A stretch of 5,258 bases of DNA, from NCBI GenBank assembly GCA_024275165.1, contig JAJRZQ010000009.1:1-5258 (forward strand). Reading direction: 5' to 3'. How positions within the stretch are numbered: the stretch's first letter is position 1; each line of letters opens with the position of its first letter. A model generated the notes under the pieces. The model did no database searches and was not told the origin of the DNA. It worked only from the letters and a program-made list of their open reading frames with translations. Below, in pieces: positions 321 to 5,258 of the stretch. The position numbers were made by a program, and so were the translations under genes. This DNA is from a bacterium (lineage in GTDB: Bacteria > SAR324 > XYD2-FULL-50-16).

Positions 321-359
321 TTATCGGGGAAGAGGGGTCTTTATCGGGGAAGAGGGGTC
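300..359. repeat. Three perfect tandem copies of a 20-bp unit
   Basis: The unit tttatcggggaagaggggtc occurs at 300-319, 320-339 and 340-359 with no mismatches. The array straddles the 3' end of the minus-strand membrane protein gene. Because 20 is not a multiple of three, each added copy shifts the reading frame. With a single copy the protein would end ...RDPSSPIK; with two or more copies it ends ...RDPSSPIKTPLPR, the stop codon falling inside the second copy read. The perfect identity suggests recent expansion by slippage, or an assembly artefact. Confidence 0.97.
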
Positions 360-821
360 GCGTTTTCTCTGGAGCAGGTGGCCCCCTAAGGTGAGGGGGA
401 ATAAAAAGGTCAAGCCTTTATGCGCCCAGCGCACCCCTTGCTCCATGCTTTCGGGTAGGTGCATCAGCAGAGCCATGCCCGTCAAGCTGAGCAACAGCAA
501 CACCGCTAGCAGCAAAATGCCGAGCAATTTTCTTTTTTTTTGCAGGTTGATGGCCACATGGCTGGGCAACAGCCCTCCCAAGGTCAGCATAATACCCCAG
601 GCAGCAAAGAGATGGATCATCTTGGCTCCCCCCTTAAAGGGGTGCCCGCCTGTTGAAAACGGGTCCGGCGGGAACAGGAATGGAGCCGCCCAAATCGCCG
701 CCCCACTGAGCAGGCATACACTACTGGTTCCCATCAAGAGCAGTTGGAGCCCGGAAAAAGGCGTTTGCTCCTTTTCCAAAAATTCACTTTGCTTTTCCAT
801 TTTAGTTGGAATGCTATTCAT
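321..821 (-). CDS. Four-helix membrane protein, putative di-haem b-type electron carrier linked to FMN_bind/ApbE
   Basis: The protein has 166 residues and no signal peptide, with four predicted membrane helices at about 24-50, 67-91, 97-121 and 131-150. Basic clusters at QKKRK (93-98) and QRKR (151-154) imply that both termini are cytoplasmic. In that topology His70 and His134 sit near the periplasmic face, and His88 and His148 near the cytoplasmic face, so they could form two axial-ligand pairs for stacked haems. The pattern HP...K.H...LLP.HV...LTG...H...PL...H resembles, from memory, small membrane proteins encoded beside FMN_bind and ApbE genes in other proteobacteria. The ATG at 821 overlaps the apbE stop (ATGA) and has AGGAG five bases upstream. 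A longer TTG start at 839 is possible but less likely. Inferred role: quinol-to-periplasm electron transfer to the flavoprotein. The tail is altered by the 20-bp repeats, and an A9 tract encodes the QKKR turn. Confidence 0.75.
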   Translation of the reverse strand: MNSIPTKMEKQSEFLEKEQTPFSGLQLLLMGTSSVCLLSGAAIWAAPFLFPPDPFSTGGHPFKGGAKMIHLFAAWGIMLTLGGLLPSHVAINLQKKRKLLGILLLAVLLLLSLTGMALLMHLPESMEQGVRWAHKGLTFLFPLTLGGHLLQRKRDPSSPIKTPLPR

Positions 822-1831
822 GCTTTCTCCTGAGAGCAAAAATGAGTACTCAAACGGCGCCCCAATCGAGACAGCCCGGCACTATGCTCAATGACAAATT
901 GCCCCGGCAGCAACTGGCGAACCCAAATCGCTTCTAAGTTCTTTTGATCCTGCAATATCTTTTTCCCCTTTTTAGGGCCCAAAACAGCCAAGGCGGTTGC
1001 CCAACCATCGGCTAGAGCCCCTCGGTCTGCCAACACGGTAACCGACCAAGCCTGTTTCTCATGGGGGAGCAAGCTGCCGGTTTTTGGGTCTAGAAGGTGG
1101 CCAAAGGTTTTCCCTTGGATTTTCTTGCTTTGACCCAGATTGGAAGAGCTCGAAAGCGCCGGAAAATGAAAAGACAACTCCAACGCAATTTGACCCCGTG
1201 CCCTGGGGCTTTCCAATTGAATATGGCGGCAAACTGGCGCCCCCTCTTGGTTTACATATAAATGACTGCTACCTCCAAAATGGAGGCTGGCCGGAACGAG
1301 GCCGGATTCTTTCAACCGCTCTCCCGCTCGATCCAAGGCGTAGCCTTTGCCCACGGCACCCAAAGCCAAGCCCATTCCCGGTCGATCCAGATACAATTTT
1401 CTGCCCTCTAATCTAAGGTAATGATAATCGCTCTGCCAAGTCGCCTGCCGGATTTTACTCAGGGGGGGTAAATGTTGTTTCGCTTCCCCCCAAAGTCGCA
1501 GCAGGGGGCCCAAGGCAGGATTAAAAGCGCCCTGTGTTTGCTCGGCCAAACCCAAAGCAAGGGCGACCAGTTTGGCGGTCGGTTCGGTGAGTTGCAGGCT
1601 TTTGGCATGACGAATCTGGTTGACCTCGCTTAAAGGGTAAAAGCGACTCCACAAACGATCATCACGCTGAACCTCGGCAAAAGCTTGGTTCGTTGCTTCT
1701 AAAGGGGTGCCCGCAGGTAGATTGATCTCGAGTACCGCGCCCATCACCCATTGTGCCCGGCGCATGGATTCTGCCCCTTCTACGCTCCCGGCCAAACCCA
1801 ACCCAACCCAAAGCAGAATCCAGCTTTTCAT
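818..1831 (-). CDS. apbE: FAD:protein FMN transferase (ApbE), exported
   Basis: ApbE cleaves FAD and attaches FMN through a phosphoester bond to a Thr/Ser in a D..SGAT motif of a target flavoprotein. It acts in the periplasm. The 337-residue protein is of normal family length. It shows the family motifs in order: FNPALGPLLRLWG (103-115), LALGAVGKGYALD (155-167), the LHFGG flavin-site region (183-187), GHLLDPKTG (244-252) and ADGWATAL (274-281). The last contains the Asp275 and Thr279 expected to bind the divalent metal. A Sec signal peptide spans about 1-20 and ends VEGA. No lipobox cysteine is visible, unlike the many ApbE proteins that are lipoproteins. The ATG overlaps the stop of the FMN-binding gene (ATGA), and the stop overlaps the next ATG. 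The obvious substrate is the SGAT protein encoded immediately upstream. Confidence 0.95.
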   Translation of the reverse strand: MKSWILLWVGLGLAGSVEGAESMRRAQWVMGAVLEINLPAGTPLEATNQAFAEVQRDDRLWSRFYPLSEVNQIRHAKSLQLTEPTAKLVALALGLAEQTQGAFNPALGPLLRLWGEAKQHLPPLSKIRQATWQSDYHYLRLEGRKLYLDRPGMGLALGAVGKGYALDRAGERLKESGLVPASLHFGGSSHLYVNQEGAPVCRHIQLESPRARGQIALELSFHFPALSSSSNLGQSKKIQGKTFGHLLDPKTGSLLPHEKQAWSVTVLADRGALADGWATALAVLGPKKGKKILQDQKNLEAIWVRQLLPGQFVIEHSAGLSRLGRRLSTHFCSQEKA

Positions 1832-2397
1832 GGTGCCGCCTGATGGAGGGGAGGTAAGTCTTTTAAAAAGATACGGTAAAGATGGATCAGCTTTCTCGCC
1901 CCGGTGGCCAAGGCCCGTGAAGAATAAGTCGCCCCACTGATCTTACGGATATCCCGCTCCAGCCGCACAGGGTCTTCTGAGTTTTTACCTTGAAATTGCC
2001 TTAAAAAGGCGGGGTTTTTGATCTCCCCGCCCTCGCTCTCACGATAGGTCATTAACTCAACAAATTCGACCTCCCCTTGGGGGTGGCGAATATAAAGGAG
2101 GTAAGTGATATACTCGCTTTTGCCGATCATGTTGTCGATGCAGGCATACCCTTTTATTTTCCCCTGTTTCAACCCTTGATAGCAATGGGTTATGCGGGAG
2201 GAAAAAGGCATGCCCGTTTTTTCTTTAAGGCCGGCCAATTGGGCATCCGTCAATTGGCTTAAGGGGACGGTCATCCGCTGTTCCCCTGCGGGAAAAGCGA
2301 GCCTCAAAGCCTCTTCGGTACTGAGGTAAACCACCGCCTGAGCGTTGGTTCCCCAGCAGAACAAAAACCCCATGATCAGCCCAAAGCGCGTTCTCAT
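1828..2397 (-). CDS. Secreted FMN-binding-domain flavoprotein, ApbE substrate
   Basis: The protein has 189 residues: a Sec signal peptide (MRTRFGLIMGFLFCWG..., cleavage probably after NAQA near 21) followed by one FMN_bind domain. Family hallmarks are GYACIDNMIGK (83-93), YRESEGGEI (118-126), FLRQFQGK (131-138) and the flavinylation motif D149..KISGATYSS, in which Thr157 should carry the covalent FMN. It resembles the single-domain relatives of RnfG/NqrC/NosR that act as periplasmic one- or two-electron relays. Mature Cys72 and Cys86 could form a disulfide, which is unusual enough to note. The ATG at 2397 follows the porin stop by 1 nt and gives the cleanest signal peptide; a GTG at 2418 would add seven residues ahead of it and overlap the porin gene. 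The protein probably receives electrons from the membrane protein encoded at the operon's end. The acceptor is unknown. Confidence 0.9.
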   Translation of the reverse strand: MRTRFGLIMGFLFCWGTNAQAVVYLSTEEALRLAFPAGEQRMTVPLSQLTDAQLAGLKEKTGMPFSSRITHCYQGLKQGKIKGYACIDNMIGKSEYITYLLYIRHPQGEVEFVELMTYRESEGGEIKNPAFLRQFQGKNSEDPVRLERDIRKISGATYSSRALATGARKLIHLYRIFLKDLPPLHQAAP

Positions 2398-2398
2398 C

Positions 2399-3568
2399 TT
2401 AAAAGGACCATCCAACACCCAAGTTCATGTCCTTTTGGGCAAGCGCGTTGACGGCTTTCGTTTTTTTCGATCCCATATCCCATTTGATGGCTATATCAGG
2501 ATGAGGCCAATAGTTTACCCCCACCCGGTTGTTGGTGAAATTGTAGGCTCCGTTTGAACTGCCAGACTCCATGCTTTTTTGAGGGTTTACATCCTCAAAG
2601 CGAGCAAAAGTCCCTATGGCCTGATCGCCGGCAAACCAGAACTTGTAAGAAGGTTCCACATAATACCCAGAGAAGCTAGCGCCAACATTTTGCCCATAAA
2701 TCTGGTTCAAGGCCGCGCTGTTTCCGATGACGCCTTGAGCGATTTCCGACCTCAGAGTAAAATTGCCCTGCTGAATATCCAGGTCAGCGGTATATAAACC
2801 AAAGGGAACCGCATCTAAAGAAACACCTGCCTGAGAAGCGGCAGCGGCGACCTTAACGGTTTTGGCATCCCCTTGGTAAAAAGAGAAACCAAAGGTAGCG
2901 CCAGGAGCATTATATTGGAGTCGGCCTGTTTGCGCAATTGATTCGGCATCGGATTTATAGGCCTGTTGCCGCCCCTTCCGTAAGGCATTGCCGCCGCTAA
3001 AACCTGCGGCGTCTAATCCGGCAACCAAATAGCCTTGCAAATTCCAAGAATCGCCAATATTGAGCGACAAACCGGCCCCCTCGGCAATTAAGGTGGTGGG
3101 GATCACATATTTATTCACATCTGGTCGATCCACCCCATAAAAGGTATTCGGCTCGTGCCTGACATTGATCAAGCCAACGGGCAACAACAATACCCCGGCT
3201 TTCGCCTCCAGCTTATTGTTGATTGTAAAGGTCAAGCCGGCCTGTTCGATTTCCAACTCGCCCTGACCATTATTCACCAGGGCATGTTCCAATTCAAGTT
3301 CGGCATTGAAGCGAATCCAAGAATTAATCTCTTTTTTTAAAATCAACACAAATCGGTGAAAATCAAATTGAGTTGTTACTTCTTGAGGGGCGTTGTAATG
3401 CAGTTCGGCGTAACCACCTACCGTAGTGGAGGCTGGTTTTTCCAATTTAAGACTGAGTTGGTCCACTTGGGTTTGCAATTTTTCAAATTCCTTTTGGGTT
3501 TGCGCAAGCAACCCTTGAGGTAGGATAAGGCACAGGCTGAGCAAAAAGCTCGCAAGGTAAGTTTTCAT
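2399..3568 (-). CDS. Porin-like outer membrane beta-barrel protein with N-terminal coiled coil
   Basis: The protein has 389 residues. A Sec signal peptide (MKTYLASFLLSLCLILPQGLLA, 1-22) is followed by a short heptad-like coiled coil (EFEKLQTQVDQLSLKLEK, 27-44) as seen in trimeric phosphate-selective/DcaP-type porins. A long region of alternating beta-strand character starting GGYAELHYN (51-59) completes the protein, which ends in GVGWSF with the terminal Phe typical of BAM-assembled barrels. A conserved-looking block NVRHEPNTFYGVDRP (135-149) resembles a segment I recall from putative outer membrane porins next to redox genes. It is the first gene of the operon. The in-frame ATG at 3655 gives 29 extra residues ahead of a perfect signal peptide, so the start at 3568 is preferred; no strong Shine-Dalgarno is visible. 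The substrate is unknown. The porin class is inferred from architecture. Confidence 0.75.
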   Translation of the reverse strand: MKTYLASFLLSLCLILPQGLLAQTQKEFEKLQTQVDQLSLKLEKPASTTVGGYAELHYNAPQEVTTQFDFHRFVLILKKEINSWIRFNAELELEHALVNNGQGELEIEQAGLTFTINNKLEAKAGVLLLPVGLINVRHEPNTFYGVDRPDVNKYVIPTTLIAEGAGLSLNIGDSWNLQGYLVAGLDAAGFSGGNALRKGRQQAYKSDAESIAQTGRLQYNAPGATFGFSFYQGDAKTVKVAAAASQAGVSLDAVPFGLYTADLDIQQGNFTLRSEIAQGVIGNSAALNQIYGQNVGASFSGYYVEPSYKFWFAGDQAIGTFARFEDVNPQKSMESGSSNGAYNFTNNRVGVNYWPHPDIAIKWDMGSKKTKAVNALAQKDMNLGVGWSF

Positions 3569-3682
3569 AAAAAGACTTTTTGGTTGGTGGAATGGATGGA
3601 GATAAAAAACATCAATGGCTTTAATTAAATAAATTTTTCTATAATCAGAATACATATAGTTTGTGAAACCGAACTTATTAAA

Positions 3683-3721
3683 TTCGCCTCTACGAAAATA
3701 GTAAACATTCGCATAGGCGAA
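3683..3721. promoter_or_regulatory. Inverted repeat overlapping the operon promoter, probable operator
   Basis: Two 14-bp arms, TTCGCCTCTACGAA (3683-3696) and TTCGCATAGGCGAA (3708-3721), are inverted copies of each other at 12 of 14 positions and separated by 11 bp. The second arm is itself a palindrome (TTCGC-CTAT-GCGAA on the minus strand), and the first is nearly so. Arm centres are 25 bp apart, somewhat more than two helical turns. The arms cover the spacer, the -10 region and the likely start site, so a bound dimer or tetramer would block transcription. No regulator gene is present in the window. Confidence 0.6.
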
Positions 3722-4396: not shown

Positions 4397-4470
4397 TGGA
4401 GGCGAGGATCGGACTTGAGCCGATGTAAAAGGTTTTGCAGACCTCTGCCGAATCGCTTGGCTACATCGCC
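4397..4470 (-). tRNA. tRNA-Cys (GCA), encoded CCA, atypical elbow bases
   Basis: The minus strand from 4470 to 4397 gives 74 nt that fold as a cloverleaf. The anticodon arm is GAGGT-CTGCAAA-ACCTT with anticodon GCA, the D stem has 3 bp, the variable loop 4 nt, and the T stem is ATCGG/CCGAT. The discriminator is U73 followed by an encoded CCA, both expected for bacterial tRNA-Cys. Three departures from the norm are visible: the acceptor stem has a T6:C mismatch, the D loop reads GA where G18-G19 is near-universal, and the T loop starts CTC instead of TTC. It may be a functional but divergent gene or a decaying copy. The next feature downstream is the gene-poor stretch, with no clear terminator. 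Confidence 0.75.
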
Positions 4471-4811: not shown

Positions 4812-5258
4812 ATGAATCTGGAACACAATTACGATTTTGGAGCCAACAAGATCATTAAGAATGAAAGTGGGGCTTTTTGCGGCTCGCGGAAGAACTAGGC
4901 AACATATCCAAAGCCTGTAACATCATGGGTTTTTCCCGTGATACTTTCTACCGCTACAAGCAGGCGGTGGAAGAAGGCGGGGTTGAAGCCTTGATCGAGA
5001 AGACCCGGCGCGAGCCCAATATCAAGAACCGGGTTGCGCCTGAGGTGGAAGAGGCCGTTTGTGCCTTAGCTATCGAATTTCCCGCCTATGGGCAACTCAG
5101 GGCCGGCAATGAACCGCGCAAGCAGGGCATCATCGTTTCCCCTGCTGGAGCGCGCTGTATATGGCTTCGCCACGGGCTAGAAAACATGAAAAAGCGGCTG
5201 AATGCCTTGGAAGCGAAGGTAACCAAAGAAGGAGGTATCCTCACTGAGCCCAGTTGGT
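4812..5258 (+). pseudogene. IS481-type transposase, frameshifted near the N-terminus and cut by the window end
   Basis: An ATG at 4812 with a good Shine-Dalgarno opens MNLEHNYDFGANKIIKNES, but this frame hits TAG about 29 codons on. The family sequence continues in the -1 frame from about 4871: LAEELGNISKACNIMGFSRD, then FYRYKQAVEEGGVEALIEKT, NRVAPEVEEAV, AYGQLRAGNEPRKQG, IWLRHGLENMKKRL and LEAKV. This is the helix-turn-helix N-terminal half of the long IS481-type transposases; the DDE catalytic core lies beyond the window. The break falls at GTGGGGCTTTTTGC (4867-4880). Removing one A from 4864-4866 and one T from the T5 run would restore NEVGLLRLAEEL, so it looks like homopolymer indels rather than a designed two-ORF layout. 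A -1 ribosomal slip on the T run is a less likely alternative. Confidence 0.8.

Follow-up and report, generated by a model that had tools for sequence, protein, structure and literature searches.

The window analysed here is a complete contig of 5,258 bp from a 2.69-Mb SAR324 genome (98% complete). Four genes on the minus strand occupy most of it: gene 1 (2399..3568), encoding a 389-aa Porin_O_P-like outer-membrane beta-barrel; gene 2 (1828..2397), a secreted single-domain FMN_bind protein of 189 aa; gene 3 (818..1831), a 337-aa ApbE (FAD:protein FMN transferase); and gene 4 (321..821), a membrane protein of 166 aa with four transmembrane helices (4-TM). On the coding strand, genes 1 and 2 are separated by a 1-nt gap (TTTTAAGATGAGA; 2398), while genes 2/3 (ACCATGAAA; 1828..1831) and genes 3/4 (AGCATGAAT; 818..821) share ATGA overlaps, the arrangement already given in an earlier note on this DNA and confirmed here. 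Sec-type signals can be read from the sequence of the products of genes 1–3.

Both contig ends carry transposase fragments (rve_3 integrase end and HTH_29 start; 1–114 and 4877–5257), probably reflecting assembly breaks at repeats, so that the genes natively flanking the operon cannot be seen. The operon has the same G+C content (0.51) as is found elsewhere in the genome (0.51–0.52 on other contigs), and contig C11 holds a fragment 90% identical to the transposase end, making it plausible that the contig is part of this genome, which encodes one barrel, two ApbE and three FMN_bind genes, plus FeoB elsewhere. A minus-strand tRNA-Cys (GCA; 4397–4470) lies between the operon and a transposase fragment. 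Upstream of gene 1 (3682–3721) are two palindrome-like 14-bp sites, TTCGCCTCTACGAA and TTCGCATAGGCGAA (the latter at 3708–3721), the copy just upstream of TTCGCATAGGCGAA being the weaker match. A role as operator or regulon marker is unsupported, since the pattern occurs at eight sites genome-wide and the reversed pattern also at eight. At the other end of the operon a unit of ~20 bp (ttatcggggaagaggggtct) is repeated three times head-to-tail (302–360); the C-terminus and stop codon of gene 4 are encoded inside this repeat and the last residues of its product may thus be recent.

The gene 2 product matches PF04205 above the family cut-off (27.8 bits against 22; E=3.9e-6) and carries a [S/T]GA[S/T]-type flavinylation motif, SGAT, with the threonine (Thr157) kept in 42/43 relatives; the nearest named relative is a protein from a SAR324 cluster MAG (46% identity). 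The closest solved structures to its FMN_bind domain are RnfG/NqrC, which have the SGAT-type motif in common with it, but 27.8 bits is far below the RnfG cut-offs (205), and membership of an Rnf/Nqr complex was rejected, as genes for Rnf/Nqr subunits are absent from both operon and window. Gene 3 is a clear ApbE (PF02424, 172.9 bits against a cut-off of 25.6; E=1.2e-50), with metal-ligand and His motifs ADxxxT (LADGWATALA) and H..DPxTG (GHLLDPKTG). At four loci, three of them from one family, FMN_bind and ApbE are naturally fused, which is direct evidence of their joint action.

FMN_bind proteins of SAR324 share two Cys residues (C72 and C86) that the alphaproteobacterial ones lack, possibly forming a clade-specific disulfide. 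One SAR324 genome (G012) carries the same gene set with three FMN_bind genes in tandem within the operon (locus L026, 3325–5687), two of them with AGAT instead of SGAT, perhaps giving a multi-flavin chain. In a SAR324 MAG (L012, 5297–6507) a lone FMN_bind relative adjoins a cupredoxin-like gene, and no gene of that 9-kb locus is labelled as barrel, ApbE or 4-TM.

The gene 4 product has four hydrophobic helices and six His. Neither it nor its homologues match any Pfam family above its cut-off, the top match being a sub-threshold cytochrome b561 (Ni_hydr_CYTB, E=1.6e-4); no match at E<=1 was obtained to PF12801, PF01794, PF03929/PF16357, PF02683 or Nqr/Rnf, and a PDB sequence search returned no relative of the 4-TM family. 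All nine aligned sequences retain four His, despite identities of only 16–26% to the gene 4 product: H70/H88 in TM2 (spacing 18) and H134/H148 in TM4 (spacing 14), corresponding to H65/H83/H129/H143 in the alignment, where numbering starts five residues later. Such a placement is what two bis-His haems spanning a four-helix bundle would require, and the protein is predicted to be a di-haem cytochrome b. The single-sequence structure models of this protein (mean pLDDT 62) and of the barrel (pLDDT 31) are too poor to be used for anything beyond the helix count.

Among characterised proteins, the DUF4405 cytochromes (Huang 2024, PMC11334425) resemble gene 4 in being small, ApbE-associated membrane proteins with four conserved central His, haem b having been demonstrated for one of the apbE-linked DUF4405 proteins. 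They are described as having six transmembrane helices, whereas four are found in the aligned gene 4 homologues and in the low-confidence 166-aa model, and gene 4 (10.6 bits against a cut-off of 26.7; PF14358, E=0.85), like its Ideonella homologue (E=0.0067), scores below the DUF4405 cut-off. By analogy of features, DUF4405 is the closest functional counterpart of gene 4, which falls outside the family by sequence. In many other genomes the type A family, to which gene 4 belongs, is replaced by a second 4-TM family (type B) with a conserved HxH; kinship of the two is unproven, since comparison of their profiles gives a probability of 11.5%.

The barrel matches PF07396 (32.4 bits against a cut-off of 20.9; E=7.7e-8), and the invariant residues of its family alignment are present; its relatives give weak matches to BBP2 or OMP_b-brl, or none. 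It has an N-terminal coiled-coil-like stretch, a C-terminal Phe and the motif HEPxTFYGVDRPxxxxYVIPTT. Foldseek with predicted models yielded no match at E<0.001 and a PDB sequence search no convincing relative. Where a barrel relative lacks FMN_bind, the genes after it often encode imelysin and a di-haem oxidoreductase (DHOR; 5 and 6 matches, respectively, among 105 neighbours), an association also seen in Parabacteroides, Prevotella and Pseudoalteromonas. In these operons, as here, a member of the barrel family takes first position and the context is one of iron acquisition, imelysins having been implicated in iron uptake (PMC3143127), but DHOR and imelysin stand where the window has the FMN_bind/ApbE/4-TM unit. 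Other surroundings include replicons of Candidatus Manganitrophus, where a barrel relative (33% identity; L133, 6935–8098) has genes for a heavy-metal P-type ATPase and a Tn3 transposase close by but no annotated FMN_bind within 7 kb, and three loci from two families (L099, L100 and L102) where the barrel relative is followed by a small putative lipoprotein of ~130 aa; in L100 a possible metal-dependent regulator, judged by eye, lies upstream.

An arrangement as barrel, FMN_bind, ApbE, 4-TM is shared by SAR324 and five alpha/betaproteobacterial plasmid lineages: Bradyrhizobium, Methylocystis, Ideonella, Novosphingobium and Sphingomonas (located by tblastn with the FMN_bind protein as query). 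Each of the five has the full set in this order, a recurrence among distant relatives that exceeds chance; their membrane proteins (~140–155 aa) are labelled hypothetical wherever annotated. In high-GC loci genes were called by a simple script and some starts are overlong. Co-location was assessed in 383 genomes from 322 genera, with taxonomic spread among the numbered genomes expressed as counts of genera and families. A strong FMN_bind relative (E<=1e-17) is present in 36/383, although a few of these may be of Rnf/Nqr type. The barrel profile identified 52 genomes, with the barrel within 3 kb of FMN_bind in 25; all 26 barrel/FMN_bind pairs are on the same strand, with gaps mostly <200 nt. 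Genes of the type A 4-TM family adjoin FMN_bind in 5/5 genomes (a sixth match, at E=8e-7, was excluded as weak), as well as in all five plasmid lineages, and those of type B in 20 of 33 genomes. A random gene pair would be expected within 3 kb in roughly 0.2% of genomes; the observed fractions are upper estimates, since some of the loci that went into the profiles had been reached through FMN_bind, which favours adjacent copies. The membrane carrier is thus variable between genomes, being replaced by type B and, once, by a PepSY_TM-like protein.

These results bear on most of what the earlier note had proposed. Its pairing of FMN_bind with ApbE is upheld by the co-located genes and natural fusions, and its view of the membrane protein as electron feeder gains support from the four invariant His together with the strict co-location with FMN_bind, features that make such a role likely on sequence grounds. 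The porin that it counted as part of the pathway appears to be a real partner, co-location with FMN_bind (26/26 pairs same-strand, in 25 genomes) leading us to reject a chance neighbour. Its expectation that porin and membrane protein would keep to FMN_bind and ApbE holds for the membrane protein, adjacent in every one of the five genomes, and in part for the porin: a porin of its own is a fair description of this operon, but the family is not exclusive to such operons, several members being partnered with imelysin and DHOR instead.

The barrel might still be a general porin that is merely co-regulated and plays no direct role, genes 2–4 alone forming the electron-transfer unit, a reading compatible with the other proposals for the acceptor. 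It would account for the 27/52 genomes in which the barrel family lies away from FMN_bind and for the sphingomonad copies, which carry a different barrel, DUF6662. We consider it unlikely, given the strand agreement of all pairs and because, in almost every copy, a barrel heads the set or adjoins FMN_bind; retention of a barrel beside FMN_bind even when its family has been swapped suggests that some barrel is needed.

Genes surrounding the relatives point to iron. When 117 neighbour genes from 28 loci were scanned against Pfam, FeoB (3), Fur (3), FTR1 (2) and TonB receptors (2) were among the commonest families, with no respiratory reductases among the repeated ones. The most telling locus (L061) carries, on one strand, a Fur-FeoA fusion, FeoB, a PepSY_TM-like gene (sub-threshold), barrel and FMN_bind; FeoB is present in L062 and L063 (one family), Fur in L079 and L086, ferritin in L083 and FTR1 in L084, while a ferritin-like protein and multicopper oxidases are encoded near the Methylocystis copy. 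About seven of the 28 loci are thus iron-linked, as is the Methylocystis copy; two come from a single taxonomic family, and three (L083, L086 and Methylocystis) have the type A carrier of the window. The 5.3-kb contig itself holds no iron genes, and the Ideonella plasmid locus has a di-haem cytochrome c peroxidase instead. In a control set of 80 outer genes, drawn from 11 further regions that chiefly surround Rnf/Nqr-type FMN_bind, no FeoB, Fur, FTR1 or ferritin was found in the repeated families, a comparison that takes in only some of the single matches. The earlier note had left the acceptor open between a metal and an organic substrate; these neighbours favour iron.

Taken together, the FeoB/Fur/FTR1/ferritin neighbours of relatives, the imelysin/DHOR partners of the barrel family and FeoB in the host genome lead us to prefer an assimilatory ferric reductase. 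Gene 4, as a small inner-membrane di-haem cytochrome b, would take electrons from the quinol pool and pass them to FMN attached covalently by ApbE at Thr157 of the periplasmic gene 2 protein; the reduced flavoprotein would then act on a substrate arriving via the cognate outer-membrane barrel, most likely ferric iron or a ferric chelate, and the ferrous product would be taken up by FeoB/FTR1-type importers encoded elsewhere. The path from inner membrane to flavoprotein is well supported by the predicted anatomy of the module, while ferric iron as acceptor is what we infer from neighbour genes of relatives, and haem content, direction of electron flow and docking of partners would follow from the model. 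As a whole, this is probably what the module does.

The same path could instead serve energy conservation, the FMN protein handing respiratory electrons on, by way of the barrel, to an acceptor that is external or imported (metal oxide, chelated metal, or organic or chlorinated compound). The His pattern of gene 4, predicting a quinol-linked carrier, would suit such dissimilatory use, as would the peroxidase gene adjoining the Ideonella dechloratans copy, and in other systems FMN_bind proteins serve respiratory reductases (PMC8238504). Here the FMN protein is single-domain and a terminal reductase is absent, and the repeated neighbour families run to iron acquisition rather than respiration; we regard this alternative as improbable but not negligible. 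Flow in the opposite direction, in which the barrel would admit an electron-donating substrate (for example ferrous or manganous ion, or cuprous copper) to the FMN protein and gene 4 would reduce quinone, or metal detoxification, is very unlikely: a di-haem b can in principle work either way, the Manganitrophus replicons belong to a manganese oxidiser and multicopper oxidases adjoin the Methylocystis copy, but the Manganitrophus barrel has no annotated FMN_bind within 7 kb, the FeoB and Fur context favours reduction and covalent FMN of low potential usually acts as an electron donor.

The preferred assimilatory reading places the operon among the flavinylation-based extracytosolic systems set out in the main text of Meheust 2021 (PMC8238504), which likewise combine ApbE, an FMN_bind substrate and an inner-membrane carrier, several being linked to iron assimilation. 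Gene 4 fits none of the five carrier classes given there (NapH-, MsrQ-, PepSY-, DsbD- and Nqr/Rnf-like), and the operon adds a beta-barrel; the word porin is absent from that main text. The P19-FTR1 iron systems, also covered there, similarly tie an FMN_bind protein to iron assimilation, but the window lacks P19 and has its own barrel and 4-TM carrier. No description of the barrel/FMN_bind/ApbE/4-TM cassette was found in the open-access literature apart from supplementary tables, where such clusters may stand unnamed.

The use of one barrel family by both the flavin module and the imelysin/di-haem module suggests that a flavin unit and a haem unit can stand in for one another at an outer-membrane channel linked to iron. 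Going further, the covalent-FMN protein might bind to its cognate barrel, or sit within it, and so reduce metal at the outer membrane or beyond it. The module would then be a widespread, undescribed equivalent, built on flavin, of porin-cytochrome conduits; its inner-membrane carriers (two 4-TM families, PepSY-like) would be interchangeable, and other lineages would place an imelysin/di-haem unit on the barrel instead. This we consider distinctly unlikely. Flavinylation-based electron transfer is widespread, and the classes found in the literature use other carriers and have no outer-membrane partner in their definition. The four-gene set occurs across many bacterial groups; it would give a function to proteins labelled hypothetical, including two unnamed membrane families, in many lineages, and it provides a route to periplasmic ferric reduction that can be tested.
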